Origin: Fibrobacterota bacterium
GTDB lineage: Bacteria; Fibrobacterota; Chitinivibrionia; Chitinivibrionales; FEN-1185
Assembly (NCBI GenBank): GCA_003165595.1
Contig: PLWQ01000041.1
Location: 1-57,514, forward strand
DNA length: 57,514 bases
Reading direction: 5' to 3'
The notes beneath the pieces are model-generated. The model had not been told where the DNA came from and ran no database searches. It saw only the letters and a list, made by a program, of their open reading frames with translations. Shown piece after piece: positions 35,897 through 41,988 of the stretch. Position 1 is the stretch's first letter; every line of letters begins with the position of its first letter. Made by a program: the position numbers and the translations under genes.

Positions 35897-36622
35897 CTAT
35901 TTCAATCGCATCGACATCGGCGCCCCGGAACCTGCAAGTCTTTTTGCGGAGGGATGCGTCGCCTTGTATTCTTCCCACGTAGACCAGCCGTCCTGCGCGT
36001 GACAGGCGCCGCAGGTACCGGGATCGAACACGCCGTTGATATGCGCGGCGGAGTCCACGGTGCCGTTGGGAACGCTATACGCGGAATCGTGGCAATTGCC
36101 GCACTGATTCACGTTCCCGCCGCACGGATTTGCCCCGGAAGTAACCGCTCTTCGCGCGTGTCCGTAATGGTACGTTGCCATCCCGGCGGAGTCGTGACAG
36201 GCATAGCATCTTCCGCCTATCGGCTCACCCTGGTACCATTGGGCTGTTGCGTGAGTCCCCTGCGGAATTCCGCCATGGCAATACACGTTGCTGCATTGCG
36301 CGACCGATTTGTCGTAGGCGGCCTTGCCGCTGTCGTCCCAGGGCGCCGTAAAGACAACGTCCGTGTCGCCGTTCATGTGCGTCAATTGATTCACGGTAAA
36401 CGCGCCTGTCGCGCTGTCCGCTTCGTAGCCTATGCCGTGGCAATACGAGCACCTGTAGTGGAGCGTGTCAACATGATACAGATGCGCACGGTCTTTGGGC
36501 GGAAGGTCGTGGCACAGGCCGCAGGTTTTGGCCGAAACGGCCGACGGATCGCTCGCCCGCTCACTGCAACTCATCAATGCCGCAATTGCAAACCCCGCAA
36601 TAAGTACGTATGACTTTTTCAT
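35897..36622 (-). CDS. Multiheme c-type cytochrome lipoprotein (about 6 hemes)
   Basis: A 241-residue product. The start at 36622 opens MKKSYVLIAGFAIAALMSC, a lipoprotein signal with Cys19, and overlaps the TGA of the preceding cytochrome gene (ATGA); longer in-frame starts lie inside that gene. Heme motifs in order: CGLCH, CSYCH, CSNVYCH (CxxxxCH), CYACH, CGNCH and CGACH. The mixture of CxxCH and CxxxxCH with the spacing seen is typical of TIGR01904-type cytochromes of metal-reducing bacteria. Lipid anchoring and terminal position in the operon suggest the outer-surface or outer-membrane partner of the barrel encoded two genes upstream, comparable in role to OmcB/MtrC; that is inference. Confidence 0.85.
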   Translation of the reverse strand: MKKSYVLIAGFAIAALMSCSERASDPSAVSAKTCGLCHDLPPKDRAHLYHVDTLHYRCSYCHGIGYEADSATGAFTVNQLTHMNGDTDVVFTAPWDDSGKAAYDKSVAQCSNVYCHGGIPQGTHATAQWYQGEPIGGRCYACHDSAGMATYHYGHARRAVTSGANPCGGNVNQCGNCHDSAYSVPNGTVDSAAHINGVFDPGTCGACHAQDGWSTWEEYKATHPSAKRLAGSGAPMSMRLK

Positions 36623-37527
36623 CGTGGCAACCTGTTCTCGTGACATTGGCCGCACGAATTCCGCGTGGCATGACACATTGCACAATTGGAAATACCCATC
36701 CGTACGTCGTTGCCGTGGGTAAACCGGTACCCCGGCGGATGAACCCGGCACGACGTCTGCCCGAAGTGGCACCGGTCGCATTCCTGTTTGGCGTGGCACT
36801 GCATGCATTCCGCTTTGTCGTACTTGGCCTCCATGCCGTGACCGTACCTGCCGACCCACAGGTACGTGTGCGACTTGGGCTTGATCTGGGCAACGTCGTT
36901 ATGGCACGCGGAACACTGGCCGGACGCCTTGCGCTCATCGTGACAGGTGAGACACGTCTTCATGGCGGGGTAATCGTCGTGCGCCAGCCATTGGGCCCGC
37001 GCCGGTTCCGCATGGCAATACCGGCAATCCTTTTTTCTGGTATAGTGCTTTCCGTGGGAGAACCTGATCTTGAAAAGGTCCGCCTGCACGACCTTATTCT
37101 CGGGCGTTTTGTGGCAGCTCGTGCAGCTCATGTCCATGTTGCGCCGCACGTGGCACTGGCCGCACCCTTTGTGCATCGTCTCCATGCCCGCGACGCCCTT
37201 GTGGCACTGGCTGCATTGCTTTATGCGACCATCGTTGTTCTTCTTGTGGTGGCAGGTGACACAGGTAAGGCCGGCATTTTCAAGCCCGCGGTGCGACATG
37301 ATCACCGGTCCCGGCATCCAGCCGACCTTAAGTGCAGACAGCCCTGTGTCTTTCGGCGAAATGAAAGAATCGAGCGGGGTCATCACAACCGTATCGGTCT
37401 TAATGGAGTCGTGAAAAAACACATCGAGTTGACAATTGCCGGACGTCGGCGACAATACGACGATCATGCCCGCAACCAGGAGGCTGGACGCGAGCAGGCT
37501 TGCGCTGGGGCGATTCTTGATCGTCAT
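36619..37527 (-). CDS. Periplasmic 11-heme c-type cytochrome
   Basis: A 302-residue product. The ATG at 37527 follows GGAG by nine bases; upstream in-frame codons overlap the barrel gene. Export signal about residues 10-33 (LLASSLLVAGMIVVLSPTSG). Eleven CxxCH motifs: CVTCH, CSQCH, CGQCH, CTSCH, CRYCH, CLTCH, CSACH, CMQCH, CDRCH, CAMCH and CGQCH, with additional His for bis-His ligation (FSHGKH, MSHRG, GYRFTHG). The early CVTCHHKKN...CSQCH part resembles class III/c7 cytochromes. Stop of the barrel gene and this start are one base apart (TGATATG), and the stop overlaps the lipoprotein cytochrome start. It is the natural electron carrier between the hydrogenase and the outer membrane. Confidence 0.9.
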   Translation of the reverse strand: MTIKNRPSASLLASSLLVAGMIVVLSPTSGNCQLDVFFHDSIKTDTVVMTPLDSFISPKDTGLSALKVGWMPGPVIMSHRGLENAGLTCVTCHHKKNNDGRIKQCSQCHKGVAGMETMHKGCGQCHVRRNMDMSCTSCHKTPENKVVQADLFKIRFSHGKHYTRKKDCRYCHAEPARAQWLAHDDYPAMKTCLTCHDERKASGQCSACHNDVAQIKPKSHTYLWVGRYGHGMEAKYDKAECMQCHAKQECDRCHFGQTSCRVHPPGYRFTHGNDVRMGISNCAMCHATRNSCGQCHENRLPR

Positions 37528-37528
37528 A

Positions 37529-38827
37529 TCACTTTGCTCCGGCCGGCGTTGCCGCCTGGCCCGATTGCCAGAACCCATGGAAATTGAAACGCGACACAAA
37601 CATCACCCGAAAATCCTTCTTGTAATAATCGTTTACCAGGTATTCCACCTGGGGTTCGAGTACAAGGCTCACGGTCGGCGTAAACCACGGCACGAACCAC
37701 CGGCAGAAGGCAAGCGCGGTGTAGGCGCTGCGCCAGTCCGTGACGAGCAGGGTCTTGTAGCGGTCGACCTGGAATGACGCGCCGATATCGAAGACCTGCG
37801 CATACGTAAAGTCATAGCCGGGAATAATTTCGTAGGTGGTGCCGTGCACGCCGGTATTCGCGTTGAGCCGGAGCGATGCGCCCTTTGCCAGGATATTGCA
37901 GCTTGCCAGATGATCGACGCCCTCGCCGAAGTCGCGGAGCGAATACGCGCCGAGCAGCGAAATGTCGGGAGCGCCGAAGAACCCAAGCATGAAACCGGCT
38001 TCGTTGTACTTATTAAGAATGAGGCGTTCGTAGTAGTTCACCGAATCTATCTGCTCGGCCTGCCCGGCGGCGTGAAGCGCCAGCAGCACCCTGTCCCACT
38101 TCACGAGACGGGCCTCAAGGAAGTATTGATCGAGGACTTTTGAGGTGACGTCGAACCGTCCGTTTCCCCTGATGTCAACAAAATGTCCGATGTCCGATCG
38201 CACGCTTGCCGCAAGGCGGTACTGGCGGTCGTCTCCTTCCTGCTTGTCGGCAGAGGCCCCGAGCCCGACCTCCGTTCCGCGGAGAATGCGCCCGACGCCG
38301 TAGAATCCGGCCTGCACCCGCCTGGGGTCGAGGCTCAGAATGCTGTCCGAATACCGGGAGGGCGCGGCGGTGCCCGCGAAAGCCGAAAGCGACAGGAATT
38401 TTCCCGCGTCGTAGCCGGCGCTGAGTCCGTCCAGATAGCCCGCGTCAAGGGCAAAGTTGTTTACAAACTGCCTGCCCAGGCTGAGCCCCAGCCCCGAAGC
38501 TTCGTGGCTCCAGTCGAGGCTGGTGGACCGGAGTTCGTACTGCTTTGGCATGCCCGTTGTCTTGTCGTTGGTGGCGCTGAGATCCGACGAAAACGAAAGC
38601 CCCGTTGCTCCGGGATTCCGCACCGAAAGATTGACGTCTTCGTAGAAATTGTCAAGCGTTCCGGTTGTATCGAACTTGTCGCTGCGGCCGTAATAGGTGT
38701 TGCCTTCGTACAGGTCGAGCGAAACTGCGAACCCGCCCGACGCGAGCATCAGTAATAAAATCGCCGCCTCCCCGCAGCGCGCAGCGGCGGAAAAGTTCCG
38801 CGGGCCGGATTCCCGGAGACTCAGCAT
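37529..38827 (-). CDS. Outer-membrane beta-barrel, candidate porin of a porin-cytochrome conduit
   Basis: A 432-residue product. The ATG at 38827 overlaps the last codons of the hydrogenase large subunit (ATGCTGA), giving tight coupling. The signal is AAILLLMLASGGFAVS after an Arg-rich n-region. The rest is alternating strands with periplasmic turns (VNLSVRNPGATGLSFSSDLS, SLDWSHEASGLGLSLGRQFV, FYGVGRILRGTEVGLGASAD, FLEARLVKWDRVLLALHAAG, WFTPTVSLVLEPQVEYLVND, FRVMFVSRFNFHGFW), ending in a short polar tail rather than an aromatic residue. The size could make a ~20-strand barrel, like OmbB-type porins that sheath multiheme cytochromes. Homology to MtrB/PioB/OmbB is not evident by eye, so the role rests on operon context. 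Confidence 0.72.
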   Translation of the reverse strand: MLSLRESGPRNFSAAARCGEAAILLLMLASGGFAVSLDLYEGNTYYGRSDKFDTTGTLDNFYEDVNLSVRNPGATGLSFSSDLSATNDKTTGMPKQYELRSTSLDWSHEASGLGLSLGRQFVNNFALDAGYLDGLSAGYDAGKFLSLSAFAGTAAPSRYSDSILSLDPRRVQAGFYGVGRILRGTEVGLGASADKQEGDDRQYRLAASVRSDIGHFVDIRGNGRFDVTSKVLDQYFLEARLVKWDRVLLALHAAGQAEQIDSVNYYERLILNKYNEAGFMLGFFGAPDISLLGAYSLRDFGEGVDHLASCNILAKGASLRLNANTGVHGTTYEIIPGYDFTYAQVFDIGASFQVDRYKTLLVTDWRSAYTALAFCRWFVPWFTPTVSLVLEPQVEYLVNDYYKKDFRVMFVSRFNFHGFWQSGQAATPAGAK

Positions 38828-40389
38828 ACCCTGAACCTCGCTATCTCGGCGCCGGCCTTGACGCTGTGGATGGCGCATGCCAGGCACGGATCGAAGGTCC
38901 GCACCACGCGCGCGGCTTCCATGGGATTCTTTTCGTCGGAAACCGGCGTGCCCGCAAGCGCCTGTTCCATGGGCCCGGCAACGCCATTGTCGTCGCGCGG
39001 AGACGCGTTCCATGTGGTGGGAACGATGCACTGGTACCGGTCTATCTTTCCGTCCTTCACCGAAATCCAATGGCCAAGCGCGCCCCTCGCCGCCTCTCCA
39101 AGGCCCACGCCTTCTCCTTTGTCGGGGATGGCGCATTCCTGTCTCGGCTTCTCGCCTTCCTCCACCTGATCCAGCCAGCCGGAGATCTTCCTGCATAAAA
39201 GCTTGCTCTCTATTGCCCGAGCCGCGTGCCGTCCGATCGCCGATTGCAGCTGCGGCAGCGTAATCCCCACGGCGGATGCAAGAGCGTCGACTTCCTTCTT
39301 GATATCCGCGTTGCCGGCCGTGTATCCGACAATGATCCGGGCGAGCGGGCCCACTTCCATGGGCTTCCCGGCGTACCGTGGCGCCTTTATCCATGTGTAG
39401 GCCCCAGATTTGTCAACGGCAGGCTCTGTCTGGCCCAGCGACGGATGCAGGTTGGAGGGCGACGAATACCGTGAATGCAATACCTGTTCCGTGATCTCCG
39501 ACGGGTCCAGGGCCATCCGCTTTCCGCCCGACACGATGCCGCGCGGAAAGTACAGGTCCTTCTCGTCGGGCCCGTCTGGAAATTCCCCGTAGGCAAGGAA
39601 GTCGCCAAACCGGCCCACCTCGGTGTAGCCGGGCAGCAATTTGGCAAGGGCCACCACGTCGGGTACGTAAGAAGAATTGACAAATTCGCTTATTTCCGCC
39701 AGGATGTTTCTTGCGGCGGCAAGAGTGGCCTTGTCGGGCGTTTTGGAAACGCCGCCCGTAACAAGCCCGATGGCATGCGGAACTCTTCCCACAAAGAGCG
39801 CCACCATCCGGTGCGCCTTCATGCGTATGTCGAGCGCCTTTACATAATGCGCAATTGCCGCGATATTGAACTCGGTGTCTTTAATGTAGAATCCGTCCCC
39901 GCCGTAGCGCGGCAGGAACGGCGCGCAGGCCGTGGCCGCGCTCACGCCTGTTTTCTTCTCCGAAAGCTCGCTTGCGGCCCAGGCCTTCAGGTAGTTGAGC
40001 TTTTCGTCGTTCCCGGAATATTTCAGGATGGCCGTGATGTCGACAAAATCAAGCGCTGCCAGATGGTAAAAATGCAGGATGTGCGATTGCAGATAATTGG
40101 ACGCGAGCGCCAGGTTTCTCAGCAACCGCCCGTTCTTGTTGGGCACCACGCCGCAGGCGTTCTCCACGCACCGCGACGACTCTATGCCGTGGGAAATGGG
40201 GCACACGCCGCAAATGCGCTGCGCGATTTGCACGGCGTCGAAAGGATTCCTTCCGATGAGGATCTGTTCGAAACCGCGGAACATGTCGCCCCGCACGCGC
40301 GCCGATTTTACCCTTCCTGCTTCGACGTCAAGTTCGACGGAGAGGTGGCCTTCGATACGAGTAATGGGATCTATGACGATTTTTGACAT
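38821..40389 (-). CDS. [NiFe]-hydrogenase large subunit
   Basis: A 522-residue product counted from the ATG at 40389; a TTG nine bases earlier is an alternative and no clear ribosome-binding site is visible. It opens MSKIVIDPITRIEGHLSVEL. The N-terminal nickel ligand block is RICGVCPISHGIESSRCVEN (Cys60, Cys63) and the C-terminal block DPCLACAIH (Cys502, Cys505). Fourteen residues follow His508 and end in Cys; these would be removed by the maturation protease encoded in the operon. It catalyses H2 oxidation or evolution with the small subunit, and lacking its own signal it would be co-exported by the small subunit's TAT signal. No membrane cytochrome b gene is present; instead the barrel and cytochrome genes follow directly. 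A 180-bp repeat-containing gap separates it from the small subunit gene. Confidence 0.95.
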   Translation of the reverse strand: MSKIVIDPITRIEGHLSVELDVEAGRVKSARVRGDMFRGFEQILIGRNPFDAVQIAQRICGVCPISHGIESSRCVENACGVVPNKNGRLLRNLALASNYLQSHILHFYHLAALDFVDITAILKYSGNDEKLNYLKAWAASELSEKKTGVSAATACAPFLPRYGGDGFYIKDTEFNIAAIAHYVKALDIRMKAHRMVALFVGRVPHAIGLVTGGVSKTPDKATLAAARNILAEISEFVNSSYVPDVVALAKLLPGYTEVGRFGDFLAYGEFPDGPDEKDLYFPRGIVSGGKRMALDPSEITEQVLHSRYSSPSNLHPSLGQTEPAVDKSGAYTWIKAPRYAGKPMEVGPLARIIVGYTAGNADIKKEVDALASAVGITLPQLQSAIGRHAARAIESKLLCRKISGWLDQVEEGEKPRQECAIPDKGEGVGLGEAARGALGHWISVKDGKIDRYQCIVPTTWNASPRDDNGVAGPMEQALAGTPVSDEKNPMEAARVVRTFDPCLACAIHSVKAGAEIARFRVC

Positions 40390-40495
40390 AATGCTCAAAA
40401 GTTAAAAGTTGACAGCAAGGAAGCACAAGGATACCGCTTTAAGCGATAGATGTCAACCTTGGTATTACTTTCCAAATCATTCATTTCTCTATTTT

Positions 40496-40567
40496 GTTTT
40501 CTTCTCCGTGTTCTCTGTGGTGAATCCTTATTCTTTGCGTTCTTTGCGCCTTTGCGGTGAATCTGCT
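40496..40567. repeat. Interspersed HRDTEDTE-type repeat between the hydrogenase subunit genes
   Basis: Contains GTGTTCTCTGTGGTGAATCC and GTTCTTTGCGCCTTTGCGGT, matching the units at 5342-5549. It abuts the stop codon of the small subunit gene (40571-40573) and accounts for the unusually long gap before the large subunit gene. Confidence 0.7.
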
Positions 40568-40570
40568 TTC

Positions 40571-41485
40571 CTACGCCTTCTTCATAGGAAACAGCCCTCT
40601 GCCCCCGGTGTCCGGGAACACCGGTTCGGTGCAACCGACACACCCCCCGCCGCAGCCGGTGCACGAGTTGACGCCCAGCCATTTACGAACAGGAATATCG
40701 CAATTCGAATCGATGCCCAGGCACCCGAGCTTGTACAGGCACCCCGGATCGCCCCAGGCCCGTGCGAATACGTTCTTCTTGTATTCCTGGAGATGTTCGC
40801 ATTTGTCGTGTACGGTGTTCTTGTAGTACAAAAGCGGCCTGCCGAATGCATCGAGCTTGAGCCTCTTGTTCATGATGAGGTGTACGAGGCTGCCGATAAT
40901 CCAGTCCGGGTGCGCGGGACATCCCGGGATGTTGATCTGTTTCACGCCGGGCAGCACGCCCCACACCGAGGTGGCGCCCGTGGGGTTTGCGCCGCCCGTG
41001 CGCAGGCGCGCGCCGGGAATGCAGCCGTAGGTTGCGCAGGTTCCCACCGCGACAACGGCCCTGGCGTTTTTCGCAAGGAGCGTCACCCATTCCCGCACGC
41101 CCCTGGGTTTCCCCTGCACCTCCCCGATAGTGCAGAATGTGTCAGACTTCTGAGGAATCGACCCTTCCATCACCAGAACATAGTCTTTTGCACCTTGTTC
41201 AAGCGTCTTGAGCAGGATGTCTATGGCGGTATCGCCCGTTGCCGTGGAAAGCGTCTGGTGAAAATGGAGGCTGATGTGATTCGTGAGAAGCGTTGCGATG
41301 TCGGGATCGCCCGCATTGAGCAGCGATACCGAGTCGCCGGAGCACGACTGCCCCTGAAGCCAGATGACCGGTGTGCGCGAAGATGCCTTTCCCAGCGTGA
41401 GCTTTGTGCCGGCAAGCACAACCTCCGGAAACACTGCCAGGGCGGTTGCGCCCCCGACGATACGTATGAATTCGCGTCTGTTCAC
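40571..41485 (-). CDS. [NiFe]-hydrogenase small subunit, TAT-exported, with variant proximal cluster ligands
   Basis: A 304-residue product; the GTG start overlaps the protease stop (GTGA). A twin-arginine signal (NRREFIRIVGG) directs export. Proximal cluster block: GQSC48-S-G-D51, where other hydrogenases have CxxC, then C150-ATYG-C155 and PGC189. By position Cys48, Asp51, Cys150 and Cys189 would be the ligands, and Cys155 corresponds to the supernumerary Cys120 of O2-tolerant enzymes. Distal cluster: His226, Cys229, Cys249, Cys255. Medial region: Cys262, Cys275, Cys278, Cys282, Cys285, more Cys than a plain [3Fe-4S] site needs. It ends shortly after FPDTGGRG with no C-terminal membrane helix, so the enzyme is a soluble periplasmic one that must hand electrons to cytochromes. 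Confidence 0.94.
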   Translation of the reverse strand: MNRREFIRIVGGATALAVFPEVVLAGTKLTLGKASSRTPVIWLQGQSCSGDSVSLLNAGDPDIATLLTNHISLHFHQTLSTATGDTAIDILLKTLEQGAKDYVLVMEGSIPQKSDTFCTIGEVQGKPRGVREWVTLLAKNARAVVAVGTCATYGCIPGARLRTGGANPTGATSVWGVLPGVKQINIPGCPAHPDWIIGSLVHLIMNKRLKLDAFGRPLLYYKNTVHDKCEHLQEYKKNVFARAWGDPGCLYKLGCLGIDSNCDIPVRKWLGVNSCTGCGGGCVGCTEPVFPDTGGRGLFPMKKA

Positions 41486-41988
41486 CGTGCCGTTGTGCCT
41501 TCGGCTGATGCCGTATTGGATGACGTCGTTGCGTATTCGCGGATAATTGAATGAACCAAAGCCACCACTTCCGCAAGCGCCGCCTTTACCGCGGGCGTCA
41601 ACTCGGCGGCCATGGATTCAACATCGGCCGGAACAATACCGACAATTTCGGCCTGCGGCCGTTCTCCCAGCGCCCGCACTGCGGCGAGCGCACCAGCCAG
41701 ACTCGCCTCATGCACTGCGAATAGCGAGTCCGTTGCGTTTGTCAAATACAATGCCGGAAATCTGTAGACGCTGCCCGCAGGGCCCGGCGCCTTCACCGTG
41801 TCGATGGCGATTATCCGTTCCCTGCCTGCCACCAAGGCCGGCAAATCGAGGGCGCAGGTTCCCGTATCAATCGCTTCCACCCAGTCCGGCAAAAGCCCTG
41901 AGTCAAGGAGCAAATTAACCGCGTGAATTCCTGCCCCGTCATCACAACGAAGCAAGTTACCTATGCCGAGAACAAGGAAAGGCTTCAT
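41482..41988 (-). CDS. Hydrogenase maturation endopeptidase (HyaD/HybD family)
   Basis: A 168-residue product beginning MKPFLVLGIGNLLRCDDGAG, the family's GIGNxLxxDDGxG signature. The ATG at 41988 follows GGAAG at seven bases. Asp16/Asp17, the Asp in EAIDTGTCALDLPA and the His in SLFAVHEASL are the expected nickel-sensing positions. It clips the C-terminal peptide of the large subunit after nickel insertion. Unusually it is the first gene of the operon, ahead of the structural genes, and its stop overlaps the small subunit start. A weak promoter-like pair (TTGGCA, 17 bases, TATTTT) lies upstream on the minus strand around 42010-42040. Confidence 0.92.
   Translation of the reverse strand: MKPFLVLGIGNLLRCDDGAGIHAVNLLLDSGLLPDWVEAIDTGTCALDLPALVAGRERIIAIDTVKAPGPAGSVYRFPALYLTNATDSLFAVHEASLAGALAAVRALGERPQAEIVGIVPADVESMAAELTPAVKAALAEVVALVHSIIREYATTSSNTASAEGTTAR

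Follow-up and report, generated by a model that had tools for sequence, protein, structure and literature searches.

A periplasmic [NiFe] hydrogenase encoded in one operon with a putative porin-cytochrome conduit in Fibrobacterota

A six-gene operon on the minus strand of a Fibrobacterota contig (positions 35897-41988 of the window, by which we mean the whole stretch of 57,514 nucleotides that was analysed) encodes a [NiFe] hydrogenase exported by twin-arginine translocation (TAT), an outer-membrane beta-barrel and two multiheme cytochromes. We consider it likely that this operon specifies a periplasmic uptake hydrogenase wired to its own porin-cytochrome conduit, so that fermentative H2 would be oxidised in the periplasm and the electrons would exit the cell. 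An initial annotation had proposed such a coupling of H2 to extracellular electron transfer, and the proposal is supported by the conserved gene order, by the pairing of barrel and cytochromes, and by the fusion of a tetraheme domain to a conduit cytochrome. Judged from its genes, the hydrogenase-conduit operon is real, conserved and well supported; it is new as a combination and in its domain fusion, and its parts are of known kinds.

We infer the path of the electrons, its direction, the location of its components and its energy yield as follows. H2, for the most part formed by the cell itself during fermentation through its cytoplasmic [FeFe] hydrogenases, would diffuse outwards and be split in the periplasm by the two hydrogenase subunits (HydSL). 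The electrons would pass along the iron-sulfur chain of the small subunit, HydS, to the c3-like tetraheme domain of an 11-heme cytochrome, from there to the seven-heme domain of the same protein, docked in or at the 22-strand barrel, and then through a 6-heme lipoprotein to an extracellular acceptor (mineral, humic matter or a partner cell). Because H2 would be made inside and oxidised in the periplasm, protons would in effect be moved outward, and the path could thus conserve energy: such H2 cycling would consume protons inside and release them in the periplasm while the electrons leave the cell.

Organization of the operon

The features of the operon, in the direction of transcription, are:

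41482-41988, minus strand: maturation endopeptidase of the HyaD/HybD/HycI family (PF01750, 9e-14; TIGR00072, 1.8e-31)
40571-41485, minus strand: HydS, TAT-exported small subunit without a C-terminal membrane anchor (PF01058, PF14720; RREFIRIVGG leader)
40399-40570, minus strand: intergenic gap between HydS and HydL, 172 bases
38821-40398, minus strand: HydL, large subunit (PF00374, 502 bits; NF033181, 635 bits)
37529-38827, minus strand: outer-membrane beta-barrel with a signal peptide and 22 predicted strands, no plug (AlphaFold2)
36619-37527, minus strand: 11-heme periplasmic cytochrome, in which a c3-like tetraheme domain (residues 31-145) is joined to a seven-heme conduit domain (residues 146-302) (11 CXXCH motifs and domain matches)
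35897-36622, minus strand: lipoprotein cytochrome with five CXXCH motifs and one CX4CH motif (lipobox LMSC; TIGR01904, 2e-12; PF09698)

All six genes were seen on the minus strand with the order and span that the initial annotation had given, and all except the barrel could be placed in a Pfam or NCBIfam family. The best starts are ATG 41988 for the protease, GTG 41485 for HydS and TTG 40398 or ATG 40389 for HydL in the hydrogenase part, and ATG 38827, ATG 37527 and ATG 36622 for the barrel, the 11-heme protein and the lipoprotein in the conduit part. Going from protease to lipoprotein, the genes overlap by 4 bases at the first junction, by 7 at the third and by 4 at the last, and are separated by 172 bases at the second and by 1 base at the fourth. 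The earlier description of the genes as mostly overlapping by 1-8 bases therefore holds for three junctions and not for those between HydS and HydL or between the barrel and the 11-heme gene. The only real gap, that between HydS and HydL, varies in length among genomes and contains a sequence (GCAAAGGCGCAAAGAACGCAAAG) that looks like a dispersed repeat and may be one. The lipoprotein had been called a 6-heme protein and does carry six heme motifs, of which only five are CXXCH and the sixth is CX4CH (CSNVYCH).

The gene list and a Pfam scan bear out the remark that the operon contains no cytochrome b, HybA or HybB gene. Hox-type hydrogenases are cytoplasmic and NAD-linked; the operon contains no Hox-type or diaphorase subunit, only TAT-exported subunits of group 1. 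An assembly artefact is ruled out by the occurrence of the same gene order in independent metagenome-assembled genomes (MAGs), and confinement to one genome by its retention in other genera at 32-85% protein identity.

The 11-heme cytochrome is a two-domain chimera

The 11-heme protein has a signal-like leader, matches the c3/c7-type multiheme family and contains 11 CXXCH motifs and exactly 11 further histidines, four of each in residues 31-145 and seven of each in residues 146-302. One further histidine per motif matches the need of bis-histidine ligation at every heme, and this exact and conserved count rules out a heme number reached by chance.

The two parts of the protein have different relatives. 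Residues 31-145 match a stand-alone tetraheme cytochrome of Spirochaetota (42% identity, E 3e-23 and 2e-22 for the two best matches) and also the N-terminal domains of other hydrogenase-linked cytochromes, whereas against conduit cytochromes that have no hydrogenase they give background only (E > 3e-4). Residues 146-302, by contrast, match every conduit cytochrome compared, at E 1e-31 to 1e-55 for those from outside the genus, and give no match with the tetrahemes (E > 0.05); the E-values of this domain comparison come from small sequence sets, and the contrast amounts to many orders of magnitude.

The tetraheme gene stands just upstream of the protease, HydS and HydL genes in all eight Spirochaetota genomes that have the sister hydrogenase (with match positions manually converted to locus coordinates), and genome G431 is arranged in the same way. 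In genome G043 (L112 7527-11193) the tetraheme and seven-heme halves are separate genes, adjacent and divergent, which adjoin a barrel gene and a gene for a 12-heme lipoprotein. The simplest history consistent with these arrangements would be that a hydrogenase which had a tetraheme acceptor of its own became linked to a conduit when this acceptor was fused to the conduit cytochrome.

A further c3-like lipoprotein, with 12 hemes, is encoded directly before a dCache methyl-accepting chemoreceptor gene in two Spirochaetota (L128 6644-9960; L129 6986-10256), and the two proteins are a possible redox-sensing chemotaxis pair.

The hydrogenase

HydL scores above the cut-off of NCBIfam NF033181 (635 bits against 600) and reaches 502 bits with the Pfam family NiFeSe_Hases (PF00374). 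It carries the L1 motif RICGVC and the L2 motif DPCLACAIH and ends in a tail of 14 residues for removal by the protease, itself a HycI/TIGR00072 match. HydS is composed of Oxidored_q6 and NiFe_hyd_SSU_C domains (Pfam), with a twin-arginine leader (NRREFIRIVGG) that is conserved in homologues and a C-terminus without a membrane helix. Although the closest solved structures to HydS are periplasmic [NiFeSe] enzymes (4kl8 small subunit, E 1.2e-52), the cysteine in the L2 motif of HydL marks the enzyme as a [NiFe] hydrogenase. A HypD gene in the genome makes its maturation plausible.

The marks of a group 1 enzyme are present in the L1 and L2 cysteine motifs, the C-terminal tail and the TAT leader. 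The four-cysteine proximal [4Fe-4S] site, which is typical of group 1 and not universal in it, is absent: HydS has CSGD, in which aspartate at residue 51 (window 41333-41335) replaces one of the cysteines of the proximal cluster. Aspartate or asparagine at this position is reported for groups 1f, 1h and 2a and has been discussed with regard to oxygen tolerance (PMC5364354), and CSGD therefore does not exclude a group 1 enzyme. Only the two species of the window genus have CSGD, the other HydS homologues inspected having CSGC or similar, and the 1f/1h-like aspartate may alter oxygen tolerance. In the HydL tree, the conduit-linked hydrogenases form one clade (99/97), which joins the tetraheme-linked clade at a node with support of 99/98; the Spirochaetota HydS proteins are 54-60% identical to that of the window.

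The barrel and the lipoprotein cytochrome

An AlphaFold2 model of the barrel, built with 11 sequences, has 22 strands and no plug (predicted local distance difference test score, pLDDT, 75; predicted template-modelling score, pTM, 0.64). VIA-align superimposes it on TonB-receptor barrels (Z about 19, about 330 residues) and also matches it to ushers and OccK porins; these matches do not indicate a function. Since TonB-receptor barrels hold a plug domain, an open barrel of 22 strands would in principle be wide enough to hold a cytochrome. The initial annotation had called for a search against MtrB, PioB and OmbB and for a strand count, with an unrelated transporter as the outcome that would speak against a conduit; the result is neutral, in that 22 plugless strands were modelled and the matches are generic.

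Membership of the barrel in an annotated family was rejected, as Pfam, NCBIfam and PDB sequences gave no match. A scan of the genome collection with the barrel sequence alone found no relative, and a barrel profile (A3) gave no significant match to the more distant conduit barrels L126 and L127. A wider profile made from Fibrobacterota members reached genomes G227 (60-79 bits), G043 and G209. At every family locus that was inspected the barrel is paired with a multiheme cytochrome.

The lipoprotein cytochrome has 241 amino acids, a lipobox (LMSC) and a lipoprotein-type leader that is also seen in homologues, and it belongs to the Geobacter GSu_C4xC__C2xCH family (TIGR01904 2e-12, PF09698), of which CX4CH is a motif. 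The operon thus presents three features of a Pcc-like conduit: a barrel predicted to lack a plug, an exported multiheme cytochrome encoded by the adjacent gene, and a lipoprotein multiheme cytochrome predicted to be on the outer side.

Conservation and modularity

HydS is found in five of 168 genomes of the phylum (G000, G001, G006, G015 and G035), and each of the five also carries conduit genes. G001 and G035 have the six genes in one uninterrupted run; in G006 the barrel gene is cut by contig ends, at which its two parts lie, and in G015 HydS and the barrel are on separate contigs. A distant hydrogenase (32%) in G029 lies on a short contig without conduit genes. Conservation of the gene order, named in the initial annotation as a test, is therefore observed across five genomes of three families.

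Elsewhere in the phylum, barrel, 9-11-heme cytochrome and multiheme lipoprotein are also found together without a hydrogenase. In G039 such a conduit is upstream of Rnf genes and ResB/CcsA, with a similar situation in G027 and G031, and in G002 it accompanies NapC-type, Fe-S and NrfD genes, the barrel there being split over two contigs. Related sets are present in G041, G158 (two copies), G055, G160 and G043. The barrel retains its cytochrome partners even where the electron source is a different one, and the set encoded by these genes therefore behaves as a modular porin-cytochrome conduit. Forcing G002 together with the window genus in the conduit-protein tree gave a p of 0.03 in the approximately unbiased test (p-AU), and there is a weak indication that the cassette may have moved between families as a unit.

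Several loci deserve separate mention. In L030 283-12004 (also L027 and L028) the conduit is followed by RnfD, RnfE, RnfA and RnfB (Pfam), an Fe-S protein in the position of RnfC, and ResB/CcsA, which is a possible ferredoxin-to-outside route. In G227 (L131 958-3268), from the phylum of a deltaproteobacterial MAG, a barrel precedes a 13-heme cytochrome. In G263 of the same phylum (L143 5594-10130), a 13-heme conduit-type cytochrome, a LysR/ModE-like regulator, HydS and HydL are encoded on one strand; the barrel of this genome is inferred from the orthologous G227 locus. Like the window operon, G263 thus has the genes of a conduit-type cytochrome and of a group 1 hydrogenase on a single strand, but its subunits are 35-40% identical, no tetraheme fusion was seen and a regulator gene intervenes, and the association in G263 apparently arose independently. 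In G209 (L145 7838-17184) the barrel and 13-heme genes are followed by two two-component regulator genes and then by a TAT-exported, formate-dehydrogenase-like molybdopterin oxidoreductase with an Fe-S subunit; the reading frame of the oxidoreductase is split, possibly by selenocysteine.

Genome context

Two [FeFe] hydrogenase genes are present in the genome together with HydF and an HydG/E-like maturase, so the organism is likely a fermentative H2 producer. A quinol dehydrogenase of the NapC/NirT (CymA) type was not detected in the genome at E <= 0.1, the conduit-cytochrome profile matches a single locus, and a gene for c-type cytochrome assembly is present. According to a 2016 survey of Fibrobacteres, the Chitinivibrionia genomes that it covered are without major electron-transport components (PMC4704652). 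Genes for a GH88 hydrolase and a sugar kinase lie in the window as well.

Alternative explanations

Several points weigh against a hydrogenase that feeds its own conduit. The barrel has no sequence match in Pfam, NCBIfam or PDB and no clear structural match to MtrB or OmbB, the Foldseek and VIA-align rows shown being generic barrels in which the absence of MtrB is no evidence. The AlphaFold2 model of the 11-heme protein reached a pLDDT of 37 and was not used, so it provides no evidence of docking with the barrel, and the hydrogenase-linked proteins are only weakly united in the conduit-protein tree (73/89). Moreover, the direction of electron flow is not readable from the sequence, the reverse being possible, and the association of barrel and hemes could in principle serve another donor.

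We considered whether the wire might run inward, such that electrons from a mineral, a cathode or a partner cell would enter through the conduit and HydSL would make H2 in the periplasm. Group 1 hydrogenases are normally uptake enzymes, the cell already has [FeFe] enzymes for making H2 and would gain little, and proton reduction would require external electrons near -400 mV; we therefore regard this direction as unlikely, even though both conduits and [NiFe] hydrogenases can in principle work in reverse and syntrophic bacteria are thought to take up electrons via conduits (PMC10553843). The two halves might alternatively share an operon and form separate circuits, with the electrons of the hydrogenase going to the inner membrane and the conduit serving another donor. 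A related hydrogenase in the Spirochaetota locus L059 does adjoin a Qrc-like set of pentaheme, molybdopterin, Fe-S and NrfD genes, but such an arrangement is improbable here, given that the hydrogenase-linked tetraheme is fused to the conduit cytochrome, that no NapC-type cytochrome was found in the genome and that the operon lacks genes for a cytochrome b, HybA and HybB. Finally, the barrel could be an ordinary porin that admits a soluble oxidant, with the cytochromes acting as the terminal reductase of that oxidant in the periplasm, or the cytochromes could serve as a sink for oxidative stress. The top structural matches of the barrel are indeed generic outer-membrane proteins, and the proximal-cluster aspartate resembles that of the O2-insensitive group 1h enzymes (PMC5364354). 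However, apart from c3/c7-type hemes there is no catalytic subunit, the bis-histidine count of the 11-heme protein is exact and leaves no heme open, and barrel and heme proteins are paired at every family locus inspected, which makes this explanation very unlikely.

Relationship to known systems

The reading that we favour, of a periplasmic hydrogenase with its own conduit, has a partial precedent in Geobacter, where extEFG is in one transcription unit with a Hox-type hydrogenase (PMC6148476). Both systems combine a barrel, a periplasmic multiheme cytochrome (12-heme in ExtEFG), a lipoprotein (5-heme there) and a hydrogenase in one unit (PMC6148476). In Geobacter, however, the hydrogenase is Hox-like and follows a YedY homologue, whereas the enzyme described here is TAT-exported, soluble and periplasmic, with its acceptor domain fused to the conduit cytochrome. 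The suggestion in the initial annotation that the complex is undescribed thus stands for the combination and the domain fusion and has to be tempered by the Geobacter case. In the literature searched, coverage of which was partial, we found no description of a TAT-exported hydrogenase and a conduit in one operon.

The operon shares with the Pcc porin-cytochrome complex (OmbB-OmaB-OmcB) and with MtrCAB a porin-like barrel, a periplasmic multiheme cytochrome and an outer lipoprotein cytochrome. Those systems differ in being fed by quinol dehydrogenases or periplasmic shuttles, where the operon would supply an encoded hydrogenase, and in their larger outer cytochromes; homology of the present barrel to MtrB is not detectable, and in place of the large (>90 kDa) extracellular cytochrome of MtrCAB the operon has only the 241-residue lipoprotein. 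Pcc clusters often include extra cytochromes, and the portion of their description consulted mentions no hydrogenase partners (PMC4245776). The soluble, TAT-exported group 1 enzyme and its c3-like acceptor are in turn reminiscent of the periplasmic [NiFe]/[NiFeSe] hydrogenases and tetraheme c3 of Desulfovibrio and Spirochaetota (L054-L062). In those systems, by contrast, the tetraheme is a protein of its own and the electrons are believed to go back to complexes of the inner membrane; in the present operon the acceptor has been fused with the cytochrome of an outer-membrane conduit.

Implications

In the usual description, known conduits receive their electrons from quinol dehydrogenases or from shared periplasmic cytochromes, and extracellular respiration has therefore been thought to need a respiratory chain. 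A bolder proposal, about which we are more doubtful than confident, is that HydSL, the chimeric 11-heme cytochrome, the barrel and the lipoprotein form one stable supercomplex, with which fermenters that have neither a respiratory chain nor a quinol dehydrogenase would conserve energy by H2 cycling. Such a supercomplex would exemplify a plug-in principle whereby a conduit is directly paired with a hydrogenase, a molybdopterin (formate-dehydrogenase-like) or an Rnf module. The fusion of tetraheme and conduit cytochrome is a clear evolutionary record of an enzyme plugged into a conduit. If the coupling that we favour is correct, it would be H2 that crosses the inner membrane as the carrier, the hydrogenase would have a wire of its own through the outer one, and a fermentative phylum would gain a route to minerals, humics, electrodes and partner cells.

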